Below, one piece after another: positions 51,179 to 61,588 of a DNA stretch of 64,000 nt. Positions within the stretch are counted from its first letter, which is position 1, and each line of letters begins with the position of its first letter. Below the pieces are notes generated by a model. It was not told where the DNA came from and did not search any database. It saw only the letters and a program-made list of their open reading frames with translations. The translations under genes and the position numbers were made by a program. This stretch comes from Dermabacter vaginalis (GTDB taxonomy: Bacteria > Actinomycetota > Actinomycetes > Actinomycetales > Dermabacteraceae): the NCBI RefSeq assembly GCF_001678905.1, contig NZ_CP012117.1, positions 1,054,001 through 1,118,000 of the forward strand, given 5' to 3'.

Positions 51179-51790
51179 TTAGAAGAGAGCGGGGCCGAGC
51201 GCTTGAGCTTTCTCATCGAGGTAGCACGTGCCACACAGCGACTCGTAGGTCACGCGGCCCGCGCCATCGATCGCTACTTGGTCGCCTTCGAACACGAACG
51301 CGCCGTTCACGCTTCGACAATTGAACTCGGCTTGCGACCCACAGCGGCACATCGTGGGGAGTTTCTCGAAGTTGTCGGCAAGCTCGAACAGGCGCGACGA
51401 GCCGGGAAATTGACAGGCGAGAAAATCGGTGCGAAGCCCGTAGCAGATGACGGAGATCTGGTCGTTCTTGGCGACGAGGAACAGCTGGTCGATTTGATCG
51501 CGGTCCAGGAATTGGCTCTCATCGACGAGAACGACATGAAAGTTTCGCTCAGGGCGAGCAGCGATGAACGCTTTGATTTCTTCGCGAAGGTCGTGCCCGG
51601 ACTCAATGAGAACATCGACCCGTCGCTTCGCGCCTCCGCGCGCGAGCACCCAGTCTTCGCCCTTCGTATCGACAGCGGGCTTGACGGTAATGGTGCCGAG
51701 GCCGCGTTCCTCGTAGTTGTAGGCCGTCTTGATAAGGGTGTCGGATTTTCCCGAGTTCATCGCGCCGTATTTGAAGTGGAGCTTAGCCAT
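51179..51790 (-). CDS. tdk: Thymidine kinase
   Basis: This 203-residue type II thymidine kinase has the P-loop GAMNSGKS, VVLVDESQFL with the catalytic Glu, CYGLRTDF for lasso contacts, and structural zinc ligands in MCRCG and CGTCY. It salvages thymidine to dTMP. AGGAGG lies 6 bases before the ATG, so this gene is leadered, unlike its divergent neighbour. Confidence 0.95.
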   Translation of the reverse strand: MAKLHFKYGAMNSGKSDTLIKTAYNYEERGLGTITVKPAVDTKGEDWVLARGGAKRRVDVLIESGHDLREEIKAFIAARPERNFHVVLVDESQFLDRDQIDQLFLVAKNDQISVICYGLRTDFLACQFPGSSRLFELADNFEKLPTMCRCGSQAEFNCRSVNGAFVFEGDQVAIDGAGRVTYESLCGTCYLDEKAQALGPALF

Positions 51791-51872: not shown

Positions 51873-52844
51873 GTGACGACAAGCGACAAAAGTGGCAACG
51901 GCCGAAAGGTCTTCACCCGTAAGAACCAGGCGAGAAAAAACTCGAGAGCGTGGCGTGAGAGGAGCCGAGCAGGCGTCGGACCCAGCGCTTCTCACTCCAA
52001 TGATGGGGCGGGCCGAACTGAAACAAGCGAAGCCGCACACCCGAGAACCCGCGCTGGTCGCACGATTCCCATTGGGCTTTCCACTTCGTCGCTGTTCCCG
52101 CTCGGCCTCGAGGAAACATTCCAGGCTGCGCGGCACACGGGCTACGACGGCGTCGAGGTCATGTGTTCGCTCGACCCGGCTACCCGTGACGCCATGCGCC
52201 TTGAGACCCTCACGCGTGTGTATGACCTGCCGATTTTGTCGCTTCATGCCCCGACCCTCTTCTTTTTGCAGTTCGCAGGCGGCCTTGACCCCAAAAAGAA
52301 GCTTGAGGACACGATGCGTCTCGCCGTGGATCTTGGGGTTCCGACGGTTGTCGCCCACCCGCCGTTCCGATGGCAGGGGCGTTACGCCAAGAACTTCGTG
52401 GAGATCGTTGCCGAGCTCGAAGAGCGCTACGGGATCGCGCTTGCCGTCGAGAATATGTATCCGTGGCGCCTCGGGGTGCGCGAGGCCCTTCCGTATTACC
52501 CGGATCATGACCCGACCGATGAGGATTACGCCCACCTGACGATCGACCTCTCTCATGCGTCAACCGCGGGTGATGATGCCCTCGCGATGATCGAACGTGT
52601 CGGGGATCGGCTCAGCCACCTCCACCTCACCGACGGTTCAGGCCACACGCTGCGCGATGAACACCTTGTGCCGGGCGAGGGGGATCAGCCGGTTGCCGAG
52701 ATTCTGCAGAGGCTCGCGCGTCGTGGATGGGGCGGGTCTGTCATCGTGGAGATCGCGACGGGCACGAGCCGGAACTTCGACGCGAAGCTCGCCCCTATCG
52801 AACGTTCGCTCGTCGTTGCGCGCCGAGAACTCAGTCACGTTTGA
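51873..52844 (+). CDS. Sugar phosphate isomerase/epimerase-like TIM barrel protein
   Basis: This 323-residue protein has a TIM-barrel domain of the AP endonuclease 2/xylose isomerase-like family from about residue 65: IGLSTSSLFPLGLEETF, YDGVEVMC, VENMYPWRL, IDLSHAS and VIVEIATG provide typical metal-site Glu, Asp and His residues. The first 65 residues are basic, Ser/Arg-rich and not part of the barrel. The substrate is unknown. It precedes oleA but has its own promoter. Confidence 0.82.
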   Translation: MTTSDKSGNGRKVFTRKNQARKNSRAWRERSRAGVGPSASHSNDGAGRTETSEAAHPRTRAGRTIPIGLSTSSLFPLGLEETFQAARHTGYDGVEVMCSLDPATRDAMRLETLTRVYDLPILSLHAPTLFFLQFAGGLDPKKKLEDTMRLAVDLGVPTVVAHPPFRWQGRYAKNFVEIVAELEERYGIALAVENMYPWRLGVREALPYYPDHDPTDEDYAHLTIDLSHASTAGDDALAMIERVGDRLSHLHLTDGSGHTLRDEHLVPGEGDQPVAEILQRLARRGWGGSVIVEIATGTSRNFDAKLAPIERSLVVARRELSHV

Positions 52845-52955: not shown

Positions 52956-53984
52956 GTGATTCCCAACACCGCGTTTGACCATAAAAACGCCGCCATTCTC
53001 TCCGTTTCCGCCGTGGAAGCTCAGGTTCCCGTCACTTCTGACTCGATCGACGAGATGCTTTCACCGGCCCGCAAGCGCTTGCGGTTGCCGAAGGGCACAC
53101 TTCAGCGCGTCGCCGGTGTGTACGAGCGGCGATGGTGGAAAGATCCCGAGAACGGGTGGAAACAGGGTGCTGTGATTGCCGCTGAGCGTGCGATGGCGAG
53201 CGCGGGCATCACGCGCGAGGACATCGGGATCCTCATCAACGCTTCCGTTTCGCGTCAGCACCTCGAGCCGGCGATGAGTGCCCATATTCACGCGGCGCTC
53301 GGTATGCCCGCTTCGTGCATGAATTTTGACATCACGAATGCGTGCCTCGGCTTTGTTAATGCGATGACCCTCGCCGCCGGGCTCATCGACGCCGGTCAAA
53401 TCGACTACGCACTCATCGTGGGCGCGGAGGATGTTGAAGAGGTGCAGCGACGCACCATCGCGCGCCTCAACGACAAGAACTCGACCCGCCAGGATTTCAA
53501 TAACCAGTTTGCGTCGCTCACGCTCGGTTCGGGCGCTGCCGCGGCTGTCGTGGGACGCTTCGATAAGCACCCGGATGGCCACCGGATCGTGCACACGCAG
53601 ACGCGCGCGGGCACCGAGCATCACGAGCTGTGCATCGGCAATATGGACGACATGCGTACCGATACGGCTGGTCTGCTCGAAAACGGCCTCGAGCTCGTGA
53701 CGCAAACGTGGCGCGCCGCCGAAGAAAGCGGTCGCGAATATTCGAATAAGCAGTGGTACATCACCCATCAGGTGTCGATGGTGTACACGCGTGCGTTCGC
53801 GAAGGCCATGGGAATCAACCCTGAGATCATTCCGGTGACGTTCCCCGAACTTGGCAACATTGCCGCCGAGGCCGTTCCGCTTACGCTTGCCCTCAACCAA
53901 GACCGTTTCGCGAAGGGTGATGAGCTGCTGCTCCTCGGCGTAGGCTCGGGCCTCAACACCGCGATGATGGAGGTGCAGTGGTGA
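52956..53984 (+). CDS. oleA: OleA: head-to-head acyl-CoA condensing enzyme
   Basis: This thiolase-fold protein of about 342 residues condenses two long-chain acyl-CoAs to a beta-keto acid. The active-site cysteine is C130 in NACLGFVNAM. HLEPAMSAH supplies the second-monomer-type glutamate, ITHQVSM the histidine and PELGNIAAE the asparagine, matching OleA rather than FabH. I prefer GTG at 52956 because OleA homologues begin near this point. The frame extends to a TTG at 52917 with AATAAT 8 bases upstream, so a longer leaderless product is possible. Confidence 0.9.
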   Translation: MIPNTAFDHKNAAILSVSAVEAQVPVTSDSIDEMLSPARKRLRLPKGTLQRVAGVYERRWWKDPENGWKQGAVIAAERAMASAGITREDIGILINASVSRQHLEPAMSAHIHAALGMPASCMNFDITNACLGFVNAMTLAAGLIDAGQIDYALIVGAEDVEEVQRRTIARLNDKNSTRQDFNNQFASLTLGSGAAAAVVGRFDKHPDGHRIVHTQTRAGTEHHELCIGNMDDMRTDTAGLLENGLELVTQTWRAAEESGREYSNKQWYITHQVSMVYTRAFAKAMGINPEIIPVTFPELGNIAAEAVPLTLALNQDRFAKGDELLLLGVGSGLNTAMMEVQW

Positions 53985-56641
53985 GCGCCAAGGACTTCCA
54001 CGATGTACAGGACGTTCCCGACCTTCCCGGAGTGCAGCCTGAACTGCACCACACCCTTGAGGTGCGTGATTCGTTTGGCGATGTGCGCCGTTGGCACTAC
54101 CTCGACAATGCCCGCCAGCTAGAGGAGCGAGGCGTCGAGCCCCGTGGCACGCTTCTGTGCGTGCACGGCAATCCCACCTATTCCTTCCTGTATCGCAGCC
54201 TGTTCAACGAGGAGATGCTCGCATCCGGCTGGCGCGTCGTTGCCGTTGATCAGCTTGAGATGGGGTACTCGGAGCGCACGGGTCACGAGCGCCGCCTTCA
54301 GGATCGCATCACCGATCTCTCGCTTTTCACGGATGCGCTCGGCCTTGCGGGCAATGTCGTGACGGTGGGTCATGATTGGGGCGGCATCGTCTCGATTGGT
54401 TGGGCACTCGATAATCGCCACGACGTGATCGGCATGATTCTCACGAACACCGCGATTCACCAGAAGCTCGGCGAATCGCTGCCGGCCTCGCTTCAGCTCG
54501 CGACCGCGCCTGGCTTCTTACCGTTCTCGACCTCGCGCACCGACGCTTTCCTCCGCACGACCGTCAATCTTTCCAAGCCGCCGCTGCCTCGCGAGGTGCG
54601 CGAGGGCTACTACGCTCCGTACCGTGGGAAGGCGCGCCGTCGCGGAATTGAAACCTTTGTGGCCGATATCCCGGCGAGTGCAGAACACCCGTCGCGCGCG
54701 ACCTTGGAGCGTCTTGCCGAAGGTCTCAAGAGCATGGCCGTTCCGACCCTCATGGTGTGGGGGCCGCGAGATGTCGTGTTCTCGGACCGCTACCTGCGTG
54801 ATCTTCTCGAACGTGTACCGCACGCGGATGTGCATCGCTTCGAGGGTGCGTCGCATCTTGTGTGGGAGGACGCGCCCGTTGCGGGTGTCGTGAGTCGCTG
54901 GCTCGATGAGCGTCTCGTCAAGGGCGAAAATCTGCGCGAGCGTTCCGTGTCGACCTACGCTGAGCAACCCGAATATCAACGCCTCGGATCTCTCATCACG
55001 GAGCGTGCGAGCGATCCCGCAACGGCCTTTGAACCCGCGGTCGTGGAGATGCTCGCCGAAGGGCCGCGAACGATTACGTGGAGCCTGCTTGAAAAGCGCG
55101 TCTCGCAGCTCGCGAGCGGCATGCGCGCGCACGGAATCAAGGCGGGAGATCGCGTAAGCGTTCTCGTCACCCCGGGCGCTGACCTCACCGCCGTGTTGTA
55201 CGCGTGTTTGCGTATCGGCGCGGTCGCGGTCGTCGCCGATGCAGGCCTCGGCATTAAGGGCCTGACCCGGGCGATCGTGGGTGCGCACATCGACTACGTC
55301 GTGGGTATCCCCACGGCTCTCGCGGGGGCGCGGGCACTCGGTTGGCCGGGCGAACGCCTTTCGGTGCGCACACTCCCCACGATTGATCGCACCGTTTTTG
55401 GCGTCAGTACGTCGATTGACGAGCTTATGCGCGAGGGGGAGCAGATCCATGCGCTGGGCGGCGGGGATGACACCGCGGATATTGATCCGGATGCGGATGC
55501 GCTCGTGTTGTTCACGTCTGGTTCCACAGGGCCCGCGAAGGGTGCCGTGTACACGCACCGCCAGGCGAGCGCGATGTTTGCGGCCGTTGGCGACACGCTT
55601 CAGCTTCGCCCGGAGCGCGGCCTGGTTGCCGGCTTCGCGCCGTTTGCTCTGCTCGGGCCGGCTCTTGGTGCGCCGAGCATCGTGCCTGAGATGGATGTGA
55701 CACGACCGGGAGAGCTCACGGCTAGCGCCCTCGCCGATGCCGTTGATGAACTCGGTTCGCCCGCGGTCTTCACCGCGCCGGCGGCGCTCCAGAACATTAT
55801 CGATACCGCAGGTGATCTCAACGACCGCCAGCGCGAAGCGCTTTCGCGTGTGCCGAGCTTCTTTAGCGCCGGCGCGCCGATCCCGGCGCCTCTTCTTCGC
55901 GCGCTACGCGATGTGTTGCCGAATGCGCACTCGTACTCGCCGTATGGCATGACCGAGTGTCTCGCGGTTGCCGCGATTGATCTTGAGGGAATCGAATCCG
56001 CAGGCGAGGGCAGCGGTGTGTGCGTGGGCGGGCCCGTACCACGCGTGGAGCTTGCAATTGCACCGCTTGAGTCCGACGGTTGCGCAGCCTCGACTGTGAC
56101 GACAGAGCCAGGCGTCGCTGGCGAGATCATGGTGCGCGCTGCGCACGTTCGCGACCGCTACCTCATGTTGTGGGATACGACCCGCGAGTCGATGCGCTGC
56201 GAGGGCTACCACGCGACGGGCGATGTTGGCCAACTTGATGCCGAGGGGCGTCTTTGGGTCGAGGGCCGCCTCGCCCACGTGCTGACCACCGCGGCGGGCC
56301 CCGTGACTCCCGTGCAAATTGAGAAGGCCGCGGAAAGCCTCGAGTTTGTGCGCCGCGCGGGTGTGTGCGGTGTGGGCCCTTCGGGCACCCAGCAGGTAGT
56401 GGTCATCTATGAGGATCCCGCGACGTTCCGCCCGGGCAAGGGCCAGACGCCGAAGCCTGCGACCCCGGAGCGTCAGGCTGCGATTCGTGAAGCGGTTGAG
56501 GCAGCGACCGGCATCGCCGTGACCGCCGCTTTTGAGACGACAACGCTCCCCACCGATATTCGCCATAACTCGAAGATCGAGCGGGCGCGTCTCGGAGCGT
56601 GGGCCGAGCGTGAACTTGCCGGTGAAAGGAGCGCGCTGTGA
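53981..56641 (+). CDS. oleBC: OleBC fusion: beta-lactone decarboxylase plus beta-lactone synthetase
   Basis: This protein of about 886 residues has two domains. The N-terminal alpha/beta hydrolase (about 1-310) has GHDWGG with Asp as nucleophile and ASHLVWED with the His, as in OleB and haloalkane dehalogenases. The C-terminal adenylate-forming domain (about 330-886) has LFTSGSTGPAKGA and YGMTECL, as in OleC. OleC closes the beta-lactone and OleB decarboxylates it to the olefin. GTG at 53981 overlaps the oleA stop (GTGA) with GGAGG upstream. Confidence 0.94.
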   Translation: MSAKDFHDVQDVPDLPGVQPELHHTLEVRDSFGDVRRWHYLDNARQLEERGVEPRGTLLCVHGNPTYSFLYRSLFNEEMLASGWRVVAVDQLEMGYSERTGHERRLQDRITDLSLFTDALGLAGNVVTVGHDWGGIVSIGWALDNRHDVIGMILTNTAIHQKLGESLPASLQLATAPGFLPFSTSRTDAFLRTTVNLSKPPLPREVREGYYAPYRGKARRRGIETFVADIPASAEHPSRATLERLAEGLKSMAVPTLMVWGPRDVVFSDRYLRDLLERVPHADVHRFEGASHLVWEDAPVAGVVSRWLDERLVKGENLRERSVSTYAEQPEYQRLGSLITERASDPATAFEPAVVEMLAEGPRTITWSLLEKRVSQLASGMRAHGIKAGDRVSVLVTPGADLTAVLYACLRIGAVAVVADAGLGIKGLTRAIVGAHIDYVVGIPTALAGARALGWPGERLSVRTLPTIDRTVFGVSTSIDELMREGEQIHALGGGDDTADIDPDADALVLFTSGSTGPAKGAVYTHRQASAMFAAVGDTLQLRPERGLVAGFAPFALLGPALGAPSIVPEMDVTRPGELTASALADAVDELGSPAVFTAPAALQNIIDTAGDLNDRQREALSRVPSFFSAGAPIPAPLLRALRDVLPNAHSYSPYGMTECLAVAAIDLEGIESAGEGSGVCVGGPVPRVELAIAPLESDGCAASTVTTEPGVAGEIMVRAAHVRDRYLMLWDTTRESMRCEGYHATGDVGQLDAEGRLWVEGRLAHVLTTAAGPVTPVQIEKAAESLEFVRRAGVCGVGPSGTQQVVVIYEDPATFRPGKGQTPKPATPERQAAIREAVEAATGIAVTAAFETTTLPTDIRHNSKIERARLGAWAERELAGERSAL

Positions 56642-57618
56642 AGGTTCTCGTGACCGGTGCGAGCGGCATGCTCGGCGGTGAAGTAGCAAAGCGGCTCCGC
56701 GATGCAGGCCATGAGGTGAGCGCGTTTCAGCGCCGCCCCGCTGGGATCGACGGCGTCAAGGACGTGTGCGGTTCGCTCACCGAAGCGGCTGATGTGCGAC
56801 GCGCCGTTGACGGTCACGATGCAGTCGTGCACCTCGCTGCCAAGGTCTCGATCTCGGGCCCCGAAGAGGAGTACCGCGCCGTCAATATCGATGGCACCCG
56901 CAACGTCGTGAATGCACTTCGCGCGCAGGGCGGCGGAAAGCTCGTGAACACCTCTTCGCCGTCGGTCGCACACTTTGGCGAGGCGATCGTCGGACTCGAC
57001 GCGACCGCCCCCGAACCCACGCGCGCCCGCGGGCCCTACGCCCGTACCAAAGCCGCCGCCGAGCTCGTGGCGATGGAGGCTGACGGCAGCGATGGTATTC
57101 TCGTGACGACTTTGCGCCCGCATATCGTGTGGGGGCCTGGCGACACGCAACTTGTTGAGCGCATCGTCGAGCGTGGCCGCAAAGGCACCATGCCTCTCCT
57201 TGACCGCGGTATGGCGCTCATTGACACGACGTACATCGACAACGCCGCGGAGGCGTTCGTGGCAGCTCTCAACCGCATCGAGCACGTGCATGGCGAGAGC
57301 TTCGTGATCACGAATGGCGAGCCGCGCACCGTTCGCGACTTCGTAGTGGGGCTGTGCGACGCCGCAGGCGTCTCACGCCCACGGATCACGGTTCCCGGCC
57401 CTGCTGCGCGGATTGCCGGTCGCGTCATCGAGAAGGTGTGGGAGCTTCGCCCAGGTTATGATGAGCCGCCCATGACCGAGTTCCTCGCGGAGCAGCTTTC
57501 GACCGCGCACTGGTTTGATCAGCGCCGCACATGCGAGCGTTTGCAGTGGAAGCCGCGCGTAAGTATGGACGAGGGCTTCGCGAACCTCAAGGTATACTAC
57601 GATAAGCAGCGTGACTGA
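56638..57618 (+). CDS. oleD: OleD: NADPH-dependent 2-alkyl-3-ketoacid reductase
   Basis: This 326-residue extended short-chain dehydrogenase of the 3-beta-HSD type has VTGASGMLGG for the cofactor and YARTK as the catalytic Tyr/Lys pair. It reduces the OleA product to the beta-hydroxy acid used by OleC. The GTG start overlaps the oleBC stop, and its stop overlaps the VKOR start by 8 bases. Confidence 0.94.
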   Translation: MKVLVTGASGMLGGEVAKRLRDAGHEVSAFQRRPAGIDGVKDVCGSLTEAADVRRAVDGHDAVVHLAAKVSISGPEEEYRAVNIDGTRNVVNALRAQGGGKLVNTSSPSVAHFGEAIVGLDATAPEPTRARGPYARTKAAAELVAMEADGSDGILVTTLRPHIVWGPGDTQLVERIVERGRKGTMPLLDRGMALIDTTYIDNAAEAFVAALNRIEHVHGESFVITNGEPRTVRDFVVGLCDAAGVSRPRITVPGPAARIAGRVIEKVWELRPGYDEPPMTEFLAEQLSTAHWFDQRRTCERLQWKPRVSMDEGFANLKVYYDKQRD

Positions 57619-58279
57619 AGATTTAACCATCTCCTCCGCTCATGATGCGGAGATTGCTGCCATTGATGCCGAGATTCGTGCCGAGCGGGATGCGAAGCCT
57701 CGCGCGTCGAGATTGACCGTAGGGCTCGTGTTGGTGCTCGGATCGACTCTTGGCCTCATCGCGTCTTTCGCGCTCATGCAGGATAAACTCGCGATTCTTG
57801 AAGATCCGAACGCGTCGCTGGCCTGCGATATCAACCCGTTCATTTCGTGCGGGACGTTCCTCCAAACATGGCAGGGGCAAACGTTCGGCATGCCCAACAT
57901 GTACCTCGGCTTTTTCGGCTTTTCGATCATGGGGGTTGTGGGGGCGCTTCATCTTTCGCGCGTCGAGCTTCCGCGATGGTTCCAGTGGGCGACCTTCGGT
58001 GGGCTTGCCTTTGCCTTTGCTTTCGTGCTGTGGCTCTCGAGCAACGCGCTGTTCGCGATTCGCGCGCTGTGCCCGTGGTGTCTCGTTGTGTGGGTTGTGG
58101 TGGCGCCCATGTTCTTCTCCTTCGTGGCTTTCCTCGTTGAGGAGAACGTGATTGAGGTGAGGGGGCCGGTGCGCGCTGTACTGCGCTCATGGGTTGTGCT
58201 TTCGCTTGCGTGGTACGCGCTCGTGATTATTACGGCGTTCTTCGTATTCCTTCCTGAGTGGCAGGCGATGTTTTTCTAG
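57611..58279 (+). CDS. VKOR-family membrane thiol oxidoreductase
   Basis: This 222-residue protein has about five membrane helices. The redox cysteines are the CPWC pair C154/C157 and the loop pair C72/C80, as in bacterial VKOR homologues. These reoxidise a DsbA-like partner using quinone, forming disulfides in exported proteins. No DsbA-like domain is fused. The GTG start overlaps oleD by 8 bases, so it is translationally linked to the ole operon. Confidence 0.9.
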   Translation: MTEDLTISSAHDAEIAAIDAEIRAERDAKPRASRLTVGLVLVLGSTLGLIASFALMQDKLAILEDPNASLACDINPFISCGTFLQTWQGQTFGMPNMYLGFFGFSIMGVVGALHLSRVELPRWFQWATFGGLAFAFAFVLWLSSNALFAIRALCPWCLVVWVVVAPMFFSFVAFLVEENVIEVRGPVRAVLRSWVVLSLAWYALVIITAFFVFLPEWQAMFF

Positions 58280-58359
58280 TCCTGCTGCGCTTCTGCCTCC
58301 ACATGCCCCGGTTATCCCCAGCGGATGGCCGGGCTATTTTCATGGTCGTTTCTTGTTTT

Positions 58360-58371: not shown

Positions 58372-59214
58372 ATGAACACTGACACGGGGCGCGAGGGGCG
58401 GCATCGCGCGGACATCAACGGGAGCACGGGCACGCGCTCGTGGGACGAGATCGAGGAATGGTCCCGCGAGAGTTCGGGGGAACGCAGAGGGTTTCGATGG
58501 TCAGCGCTCAAGGAGCCTCGAGTGCTCCTCGGCATTCTCACGGCGGGTGCACTCGCCCTCGGCGGTGCCCACATGGCGACATCGATGACACCACGTGAGG
58601 ACACGGTTGCCGTCAATGAGGAGGCGCCACCGGGACCGCCGCACTCCACTAGTTCGCCGCGGGACTTCGCGAGTGCAGCGCCCACGGCCTCAAGCCCTCC
58701 CGCAATTGTGGGCGGTGCAGCCCAGCCCGTAGCCTCGCCAGAGGCGCCGCACACCATACTCGTTCATGTTGTGGGAGCCGTGAAGGATCCTCGCGTTGTG
58801 GAACTTCCCGCCGATTCCCGCGTAGGGGAGGCACTCGAAGCGGCGGGTGGCGCCACGGATGAAGCTGACCTCAGCCGGCTCAATCTCGCACGAGTGGTGA
58901 GTGACGGTGAGCAGGTGTTCGTTCCGCGCCAAGGTGAGGATATTCCCGCAGGGCTACCCGCTCCTTCGCCGCAGCAAGGTGCAACACCCGGTGACTCCAC
59001 GGGAGAGAACCCTTCGGATCACGGACTCCTCAACATCAACACCGCCACGGAAAGCGAGCTTGAAGAACTTCCCGGCGTGGGGCCCGCCATCGCGTCCCGG
59101 ATTGTTGAACATCGCACCACAAACGGCGCCTTCACGAGTATCGAACAGCTCCAAGACGTCAAAGGGATTGGTCCCGCGATCTTCGAGAAACTTCGTGAAC
59201 GCATCACCGTGTGA
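58372..59214 (+). CDS. comEA: ComEA-like DNA-binding protein
   Basis: This 280-residue protein has one membrane helix (about 47-65), a proline-rich spacer, a SLBB domain (about 125-185, VHVVGAVKDP) and a tandem helix-hairpin-helix domain (about 222-280, LLNINTATESELEELPGVG). ComEA proteins bind extracellular DNA and pass it to ComEC. comEC follows. Whether this organism is transformable is unknown. Confidence 0.92.
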   Translation: MNTDTGREGRHRADINGSTGTRSWDEIEEWSRESSGERRGFRWSALKEPRVLLGILTAGALALGGAHMATSMTPREDTVAVNEEAPPGPPHSTSSPRDFASAAPTASSPPAIVGGAAQPVASPEAPHTILVHVVGAVKDPRVVELPADSRVGEALEAAGGATDEADLSRLNLARVVSDGEQVFVPRQGEDIPAGLPAPSPQQGATPGDSTGENPSDHGLLNINTATESELEELPGVGPAIASRIVEHRTTNGAFTSIEQLQDVKGIGPAIFEKLRERITV

Positions 59215-59284
59215 CGCTCTCGGCGCTGGAGTCGGCGGTTTCGGCGAGAAGCCCGTTCGGGGTTTAAGCCTTATCCCTCACGCT

Positions 59285-61588
59285 GTGGTGGTATGGCCCG
59301 CGACGATTGCAGGGGTTGCCTTCGGCCCCGTTGTTCTGCTCGCCGTGATCCTCCCGGGCCTCCTCATGCTCATGGTTCGCGATAGGCGCGTGCGGGCACA
59401 CGCCCTCCTTGCCGTTGCTCTCGGGGCGGCGATCGCCGGGCCGGTCGGGCGTGCGCACGCCGCGGAGCTGAGCCTCGACGAGGCGCTCTCGATAAGAAAC
59501 GTCGTGACCGAGGTGCAGGTCGCTCTTGGCGAGCAACCGTCGGAACCCAGGAAAACACGCGCATGGGATACGGCACGCGCCCGCGCATCCGCTCGGCCTG
59601 TGACGCCGACGATTTCGGTGGGAGCGGGGAAGCAGGAGCTTCCTGGCAACGGACGCATTGTGTTGACGTGGAGCGAGAAGACGCGCGGGGAAAATCCGTT
59701 TTCGCTTGCACGGGGCGAGATTCTCACGGCGCGGGGCTACGCTGAACGGGACGGTTCGACCCTTTTCCTCGACGTCACCGAGTGGGAGCGATCGAAGGTC
59801 GCGAATGAGAAGAATGAGGGATTTGCGTCACGAATAGGGCGCTTCCTCGAAGACTGGCGCAACGCACGCAAGGACCTCGTGCGCGAGACATCGGCATTCC
59901 TCCCGCTAAATGAATCCGCGCTCGTGGTAGGCATGACGCTTGGCGACGTGACCGGGCTTGACAAAGACACGAAGGATGCCATGGCGACTTCGGGTCTCAC
60001 CCACCTCGTTGCCGCCTCGGGCGCAAACATCGCGCTAACCTACGCGTTTGTCACTCTGCCGCTTCTCGCGTTCGGCGTGCGACGCAAGGCGAGGGTAGTC
60101 GCGGGTGCGGTGGGAATCGTCGTGTATGTCGCTGCCGTGGGATCCGAACCTAGTCTGCTGAGAGCCGCGCTCATGGCCGTGCCCCTCATGATTGGTCGCT
60201 ACTGGGGATTTCGCACCCCAGCCGTGAACGCCCTCGCTCTCACCGTACTCACATGGTGCCTCCTTGACCCTTCACTCGTGGGGGAAGTGGGATTCGTGCT
60301 GAGCGTCGGGGCCACGTGGGCGATCCTCGCTCTCTCAGTTCCACTCGCGGATGTCCTCCAGCAGGTCAGCGGTGGGCGAATCTCGCGGAATCTTGCGCTC
60401 GTGCTTGCCGTTCCGACGGTTGCCCAGGCTGCGTGTACTCCCGTCTTGCTTTTGCTCGCTCCCGAAACTTCCGTGTGGGCGGTACCTGCCAATATCGCTG
60501 CCGAAATTGTTGTGGCTCCCGCGACCGTGGTGGGGTTCGCGGGCATTCTTGTCGCGCACGTCTGGCCGCCGCTGGCGATGCCGTTTTTCGCCGTCTCCGG
60601 GGCAGGCGCACACATCCTTGTGCTCATCGCGCAGGTAAGTTCCTCACTTCCGGGTGCGCATATTGCTCTTCCTGTCGGTGCAACAGGGGCGCTGACCGTG
60701 GCTGGGGTGATTGTGCTTGTGGGTCTCACGCTATGGCTTCGCAAGCGGAGAGAAGTGCGCCTCGCGATTGCCTTCGTTGTGATCGTTCTTCTCGTGGTTG
60801 GTGGCTCACGGATCGTGAGTCACGACGCGGGGGACTGGGATGTCGTGATGTGCGACGTGGGGCAAGGCGATGCCATGCTCGTGCGCGCGGGCGAGCACAC
60901 GGTGCTCATCGATACGGGACCCGACCCGGCAAAGCTCGCGAGTTGCCTCGATCGGGCCAGCGTAGAGTCGATCGATCTTCTCGTCGTGACCCACCCTCAC
61001 GCCGACCACGACGGGGGTATCCCTGCACTTGAGGGGCAGTGGGCACCAGAGAGTGCATGGGTGTGCCCTCTGGATACATCTACGGAACCCAAACTCCCGC
61101 GTGCTGAGGTGGAAGCGGTGCTCGCACCCCGCACGGAAACCCTGGGGGCGCTTTCCCTCGAGGTTGTGTGGCCGCGCTCAGCCGAGGAAGCGCGAGTCGT
61201 TGGTGCTGGCGAGGGTGGGGGAGAGGAGTCCGCGCTTAATGACTGTTCAATTTCGATGCTTGTGAAGGCGCCCGGATGGAGCGCCTTGACGCTAGGGGAT
61301 CTAGAGCCAAATGCGCAAGCTAGCCTTGCGCGTTCGGGGGTCGTGGAACCCGTTGAGTTCGTTAAGGTTGCGCATCACGGTTCCCGGCGGCAGGCGCCCG
61401 AGCTTTATGAGCGCTCGCGAGCCGCACTCGCCGTCATCGGTGTTGGTGAGAACACCTTCGGGCATCCGCATCCACGAACGCTCACGATGCTTGAGCGGCA
61501 AGGGGCGGTGCTGAGGCGCACCGACACGGACGGAATGCTGGCCTTTGAGCGCACCCCGGAAGGGTGGAGGGTTGTCCCATTGCCATGA
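59285..61588 (+). CDS. comEC: ComEC/Rec2 DNA channel with MBL domain
   Basis: This protein of about 767 residues has N-terminal membrane helices, an OB-like external segment, a competence domain (GLTHLVAASGANIAL, about 230-470), and a C-terminal metallo-beta-lactamase domain with DVGQGDAMLV, THPHADHDGG and KVAHHGSR. It imports single-stranded DNA. The start is uncertain: tandem GTG codons at 59285/59288 fit the first helix, but no ribosome site is visible. Frame extension into comEA is not counted. Confidence 0.9.
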   Translation: MVVWPATIAGVAFGPVVLLAVILPGLLMLMVRDRRVRAHALLAVALGAAIAGPVGRAHAAELSLDEALSIRNVVTEVQVALGEQPSEPRKTRAWDTARARASARPVTPTISVGAGKQELPGNGRIVLTWSEKTRGENPFSLARGEILTARGYAERDGSTLFLDVTEWERSKVANEKNEGFASRIGRFLEDWRNARKDLVRETSAFLPLNESALVVGMTLGDVTGLDKDTKDAMATSGLTHLVAASGANIALTYAFVTLPLLAFGVRRKARVVAGAVGIVVYVAAVGSEPSLLRAALMAVPLMIGRYWGFRTPAVNALALTVLTWCLLDPSLVGEVGFVLSVGATWAILALSVPLADVLQQVSGGRISRNLALVLAVPTVAQAACTPVLLLLAPETSVWAVPANIAAEIVVAPATVVGFAGILVAHVWPPLAMPFFAVSGAGAHILVLIAQVSSSLPGAHIALPVGATGALTVAGVIVLVGLTLWLRKRREVRLAIAFVVIVLLVVGGSRIVSHDAGDWDVVMCDVGQGDAMLVRAGEHTVLIDTGPDPAKLASCLDRASVESIDLLVVTHPHADHDGGIPALEGQWAPESAWVCPLDTSTEPKLPRAEVEAVLAPRTETLGALSLEVVWPRSAEEARVVGAGEGGGEESALNDCSISMLVKAPGWSALTLGDLEPNAQASLARSGVVEPVEFVKVAHHGSRRQAPELYERSRAALAVIGVGENTFGHPHPRTLTMLERQGAVLRRTDTDGMLAFERTPEGWRVVPLP

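Follow-up and report, generated by a model that had tools for sequence, protein, structure and literature searches.

The window analysed here, the whole 64,000-nucleotide stretch from 1054001 to 1118000 of the 2.39-Mb single-contig genome of Dermabacter vaginalis, carries oleA, an oleBC fusion and oleD, followed by a VKOR gene (Table 1). The ole genes overlap by 7 bases (oleA/oleBC, 53978-53984) and 4 bases (oleBC/oleD, 56638-56641), and the oleD stop overlaps the VKOR start by 8 bases (57611-57618 (+), GTGACTGA); GTG 57611 is the sole VKOR start codon found in the window from the opening of the frame to residue 20. A sequence-only reading of this DNA had described both the overlapping oleA-oleBC-oleD unit with its catalytic motifs and the 8-base oleD-VKOR overlap, and both are present on the forward strand where it had placed them. 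Upstream, an AP_endonuc_2 TIM barrel gene ends 111 nt before oleA and is possibly the first gene of the ole-VKOR unit. Downstream, VKOR and comEA are spaced by 92 nt with a hairpin between them, and by several hundred nt in most relatives.

Table 1. Features of the ole-VKOR locus (positions in the window)
Feature	Position	Strand	Basis or remark
Thymidine-kinase-like gene, left edge of conserved block	51179-51790	-	named by eye
Xylose-isomerase-like TIM barrel (AP_endonuc_2)	51873-52844	+	Pfam E 3.4e-24
oleA, acyl-CoA condensing thiolase-like	52956-53984	+	GTG start
oleBC fusion, alpha/beta hydrolase (beta-lactone decarboxylase-like) + AMP-binding (beta-lactone synthetase-like)	53978-56641	+	Pfam
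oleD, 2-alkyl-3-oxoalkanoate reductase-like	56638-57618	+	NF042422, Rossmann and YxxxK motifs
VKOR, 222 aa	57611-58279	+	Pfam VKOR
Terminator-like hairpin (11 pairs) followed by T-rich stretch, between VKOR and comEA	58307-58333	+	
comEA-like gene, next unit	58372-59214	+	HHH and SLBB domains; TIGR00426 above cut-off
comEC-like ORF, right edge of conserved block	58901-61588	+	named by eye and position; true start uncertain, probably ~59213

The gene identities proposed earlier for oleA, oleBC, oleD and VKOR agree with Pfam domains and with motifs that we take to be catalytic. OleA carries ACP_syn_III/_C domains and the motifs NACL (Cys130), HQVS, GNI and GSGLN; it scored 416.9 bits against NF006720 (cut-off 285), as expected of an OleA-type enzyme, and its best PDB matches were 3s21 and 3row (E 2e-73), with NACL, HQVS and GNI aligned. 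OleBC joins Abhydrolase and AMP-binding domains in one 887-aa chain, with GHDWGG in the OleB part and TSGSTGPAKG and YGMTE in the OleC part, and OleD has Epimerase/3Beta_HSD domains with TGASGMLG and YARTK. The Micrococcus-type fusion noticed before was borne out; according to the accessible part of PMC7064751, it is already known as typical of Micrococcales. The domains for all four Ole activities are encoded together, those of OleB and OleC with their catalytic motifs, and on the strength of these gene identities and motifs the earlier prediction that Dermabacter makes long-chain internal alkenes is probable.

The NCBIfam OleC model matched OleBC at E 8e-81, yet below its cut-off; the OleC models gave 272.1 of 900 bits and 221.6 of 850, and OleD likewise fell short with 289.6 and 223.9 of 580 bits (E 3.5e-86 against NF042422). 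Two genomes of another family (f6) scored alike, with 239-292 of 850-900 for OleBC and 226-292 of 580 for OleD, so the shortfall does not set Dermabacter apart. These cut-offs appear to be tailored to the Xanthomonas and Shewanella types, and we assign the window cluster only to a broader Micrococcales type.

The VKOR domain was recognized by Pfam at E 4.2e-34 (118 bits, cut-off 27.5) in a protein that has five transmembrane-like stretches and whose four cysteines lie in CDINPFISC (Cys 72/80) and CPWC (154/157). All four cysteines are invariant in 33 aligned relatives, which represent 33 of the 43 ole-linked sequences. The predicted model has a mean pLDDT of 81, with cysteine-loop residues 73-84 below 50, and the best twelve rows of a structural search with it were all solved VKORs at Z 11.6-14.3 (next row 8.9), a range that helical models can reach without kinship. 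Foldseek placed solved VKORs at E 0.002-0.18, none at or below 0.001, and a sequence search against the PDB found them at E 0.076 only. With the domain, the fold, the two loop cysteines and the CxxC all present, the protein is a member of the VKOR family; it is 96% identical to the VKOR of Dermabacter indicis (Dermabacteraceae).

Proteins of the VKOR family act at the outer face of the membrane. The one encoded at 57611-58279 is the only VKOR found in its own genome, where no DsbB match was found and two DsbA-like Thioredoxin_4 proteins are encoded (genome positions 347889 and 189467), both far from the ole-VKOR locus. By eye, one of them has CPFC and an N-terminal membrane stretch, and the other, which also matches DSBA, has CPHC and is lipoprotein-like. 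Because it is the sole VKOR, with no DsbB found and two DsbA-like proteins elsewhere, the window VKOR most likely has a general task, the menaquinone-coupled regeneration of DsbA-type oxidases. According to the accessible part of PMC5478893, MdbA of Actinomyces oris is reoxidised by VKOR, and the likely acceptor is menaquinone. The make-up of the Dermabacter genome is that of this actinobacterial MdbA/VKOR system, with a four-cysteine VKOR and DsbA-like proteins, but in the window VKOR lies behind oleD, with no DsbA-like gene next to it.

The conservation of this arrangement was surveyed in 47 Dermabacteraceae genomes, own included, with oleD relatives called at E <=1e-79. oleD was present in 46 of them, and comparison of the places of matches put VKOR directly behind oleD in 44 of these 46. 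The two remaining oleD-bearing genomes were G040, in which oleD and VKOR both run into contig ends and VKOR adjoins comEA and comEC, and G020, in which comEA follows oleD and a divergent VKOR lies elsewhere in the genome. The placement of VKOR behind oleD is thus more than chance in this family, and the outcome under which the sequence-only reading would have given up its proposal, absence of the adjacency from all relatives, did not occur. Of the 26 VKOR-matched loci, six with names, three from Dermabacter and three from Brachybacterium, displayed the order; in the other 20 no oleA or oleD match was found, and L095 has one 25% oleBC-like stretch. Genome G041 is 85% complete, and in its locus L051 (~1938544-1939499 of the contig) oleD matches in two overlapping pieces, through either a frameshift or an error of assembly.

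Forty-three of the 44 pairs were fetched and measured, G045 being judged from the places of matches alone. Measured from oleD stop to VKOR start, the gap was -8 in four loci, each of them from Dermabacter, and -4 in two others, and the remaining 37 have 1-117 nt; a simple rule picked the VKOR starts, and starts further upstream exist in two of the Dermabacter loci, so that single gaps may be off. As the -8 gap was seen in Dermabacter loci alone (4/4 genomes compared, window included), the overlap is a feature of the genus and the gene order one of the family.

The pair belongs to a longer kept block that spans thymidine kinase to comEC. The thymidine-kinase-like gene was found beside the ole block in 39/41 family loci, L019 and L037 being the exceptions, and comEC in 41/41. 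Of the 43 family loci that have oleA, 40 showed the TIM barrel gene before it, all but L016, L019 and L020. Window genes beyond comEC were found in only 2/41 family loci, and pdxY, left of thymidine kinase, in 4/41; this left edge is partly tested, many fetched stretches ending close to thymidine kinase. Within the block, L020 and L050 have insertions between VKOR and comEA, and none was found between oleD and VKOR in the 43 loci having both. The L020 insertion (L020:5370-7114, genome G009) consists of two overlapping genes, the first without a Pfam match and the second matching the Kiwa defence protein KwaB (E 1.1e-8), and the one in L050 (L050:3802-6909, genome G038) contains genes that by eye resemble a TRAP-type transporter.

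Of the 43 ole-linked rows in an 88-VKOR tree, 41 grouped together with that of G040 (97/68), and the L016/L020 pair fell outside the main group with weak support, beside long branches. When eight long-branch rows, chosen after seeing the full tree, were left out, all 44 ole-linked VKORs (G040 included) lay on one side of a branch with SH-aLRT 94.9, not starred. These relationships suggest that the ole-linked VKORs share one origin. A single placement of VKOR behind oleD, dating from the last common ancestor of the family or from earlier, is probable, and G020 fits one later loss from the ole locus; the three changes counted for the ole-linked group stem partly from labelling the G040 row with the paralogs. 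The L016/L020 VKORs have 31-32% identity and CPYC, and replacement in place was considered for them; fast evolution is as likely, since the grouping returns without the eight long rows.

A separate VKOR lineage forms a second copy in nine family genomes, with no ole match beside it. In G006, the family genome without oleD, a divergent VKOR (CTAGIYFRC, CLWC; L017:8008-8706) adjoins leuS; leuS and VKOR are likewise no more than ~1.5 kb apart in five loci from other genomes (L098, L100, L105, L116 and L131). Close to the divergent VKOR of G020 (L032:7370-8065) are genes that look by eye like those of an ABC transporter and of a PadR-like regulator.

Predicted ribosome-binding energies were -9.9 kcal/mol for oleBC and -8.2 for oleD, both strong, and -2.8 for VKOR, against a background mean of -2.7. 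The background-level energy together with the overlap suggests translational coupling in Dermabacter, VKOR being translated by ribosomes that finish oleD. Such coupling would not be general in the family, because VKOR starts 1-117 nt behind oleD in 37/43 loci, many of which have a ribosome-binding-like site of their own before VKOR. The close packing of the genes points to one ole-VKOR transcript. No terminator-like hairpin was found at the oleD-VKOR junction in 43/43 family loci (63-nt scan), and a consensus scan of the window detected no promoter-like site just before VKOR, although a promoter for VKOR may lie inside oleD. The one promoter-like site of the scan (56532-56560, inside oleBC) was not used, 1.3 such sites being expected. 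The proposal that VKOR is coupled to the ole genes is upheld as probable, on the adjacency in the family and the overlap in Dermabacter.

The hairpin at 58307-58333 has a counterpart in two of three other Dermabacter loci and may end the ole-VKOR unit before comEA; terminator-like sites in the scanned stretch numbered 7, against 6.8 expected by chance from shuffles. A terminator after VKOR as a family trait was not adopted, the difference between 14/43 loci and 6/43 in a coding control being weak.

Outside the family, an even set of 297 genomes of the order was searched with oleD relatives accepted at E 1e-60 or better, and the full oleA-oleBC-oleD order was checked in 15 other-family loci and in the stretches of family f3. 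oleD relatives occurred in 121/297 genomes, 98 of them outside Dermabacteraceae. VKOR was found somewhere in 92 of these 98, and within 10 kb of oleD in none; no VKOR was found in the other six (G107, G115, G146, G172, G211 and G284). The two genes share a contig in 36 of the 92 genomes having both, four times within 50 kb and 13 times within 150 kb; in the other 56 they are on different contigs, where a pair split by a contig end is possible, and in G163 and G317 the contig ends <400 nt downstream of oleD. From each of ten of the 15 other-family loci a single long downstream ORF was scanned; the choice was mechanical, so some of these ORFs may not be the gene that actually follows. Matches to named families were obtained for five ORFs, to a different family each time and never to VKOR (alcohol dehydrogenase, acetyltransferase, a desaturase encoded on the opposite strand, phosphotransferase and APP1); of the remainder, one had a sub-threshold DUF6297 match and four no match. 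Across the order sample VKOR was present in 115/121 oleD-bearing and 113/176 oleD-less genomes, and outside the family in 92/98 against the same 113/176; kinship being controlled in neither comparison, the association was not pressed.

Four f3 genomes have oleD and VKOR on one strand, VKOR being 14-42 kb downstream. By eye, the 14-kb stretch between them in G109 (L141:778-16242) contains other genes, and a search of the f3 stretches for the genes of the window found ole and VKOR alone, so an ancestral ole-VKOR linkage was not pressed from this proximity. Among the sampled genomes, the ole-VKOR pairing is kept in one family and was not seen outside it.

We consider it likely that the locus is a Micrococcales-type ole operon with a general VKOR as its last gene, kept there by inheritance and shared expression and not by a role in alkene synthesis. 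OleA would condense two acyl-CoAs, OleD would reduce the resulting beta-keto acid, the OleC part would close the beta-lactone and the OleB part would decarboxylate it to the internal alkene. VKOR probably shares the ole transcript, and in Dermabacter ribosomes completing oleD would go on to translate it; the enzyme would pass electrons from DsbA/MdbA-like thiol oxidases via its four cysteines to menaquinone, and its activity would thereby support disulfides in exported proteins. No direct chemical step between the two is apparent, because the Ole enzymes look soluble and VKOR acts at the outer face; since the pairing was not seen outside the family, a shared operon is probably the better description than a new pathway step.

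The strict retention of the oleD-VKOR pair could nevertheless reflect a functional tie, in which alkenes and quinone-coupled disulfide formation are adjusted together and co-expression was selected, for example if alkenes in the bilayer alter menaquinone mobility or envelope load. The near-constant adjacency, the insertions that spare the oleD-VKOR junction and the frequency of VKOR in oleD-bearing genomes of the order speak for such a tie, but thymidine kinase and comEC are about as well kept, and since everything between thymidine kinase and comEC is conserved as one block, retention of the pair within it is not special. Against it also stand the 98 oleD-bearing genomes of other families, in none of which VKOR was found within 10 kb of oleD and six of which yielded no VKOR, as well as G006, with VKOR and no ole, and G020, with ole and VKOR elsewhere. 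The same observations leave unsupported the shared role under redox or membrane stress that the sequence-only reading had conceived. Its argument that both systems are membrane associated is weak, as no transmembrane-like stretch was seen in OleA or OleD and just a marginal one in OleBC. Selected co-expression therefore seems unlikely to us, and a bolder form of the idea, in which the Dermabacteraceae operon is a membrane-state module whose single transcript sets alkene and disulfide-oxidase levels and so co-regulates alkene synthesis with the entry of thiol electrons into the menaquinone pool, seems more unlikely still.

Position might also carry no meaning for expression at all, with VKOR transcribed alone in a merely inherited neighbourhood and the Dermabacter overlap reflecting genome compaction. 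The range of oleD-VKOR gaps from -8 to 117 nt and the retention of the whole block would suit this, but the shared strand, short gap and hairpin-free junction of 43/43 loci and the window scan, in which no promoter-like site directly preceded VKOR, make it quite improbable.

A service of VKOR to ComEA/ComEC or a competence pilus, with ole as a bystander, is not favoured and appears highly improbable: comEA and comEC stand behind VKOR in nearly all family loci, but ComEA has no cysteine in 42/43 loci (aligned part to the stop), the window ComEC has none before residue 349, over the large stretch between its first and later membrane segments (a statement on the window alone, as some relatives, L015 and L016 among them, have cysteines nearer the front of the aligned part), the 92 nt and hairpin part VKOR from comEA, and no comEA or comEC match was found in the ~5-kb flanks of 31 other-family VKOR loci. 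Bacillus BdbDC serves competence, and the Dermabacter locus resembles BdbD/BdbC in having a DsbB-type enzyme near competence genes, but it has no DsbA partner at the locus and its ComEA is free of cysteine.

The preferred reading, a shared operon, makes the ole-VKOR arrangement a family-level operon variant of known enzymes. It has the oleA, oleBC and oleD content of the ole cluster of Micrococcus luteus and other Micrococcales, and differs in the VKOR gene behind oleD. Literature searches, with most subscription papers outside their coverage, found no description of the ole-VKOR gene order. To our knowledge, the cellular role of bacterial long-chain alkenes is still unclear, and a family with a firm link between alkene genes and a VKOR, which in Dermabacter is the only one, offers a cheap test of whether alkene synthesis tracks oxidative folding. 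Alkenes have been measured in many Micrococcales genera according to the accessible part of PMC7158056, the main text of which makes no mention of VKOR, vitamin K, Dermabacter or Brachybacterium. Deletions of ole genes in the family may be polar on VKOR, an enzyme that could matter for growth, because deletion of its partner gene mdbA is lethal in many actinobacteria, as stated in the accessible part of PMC9974433.
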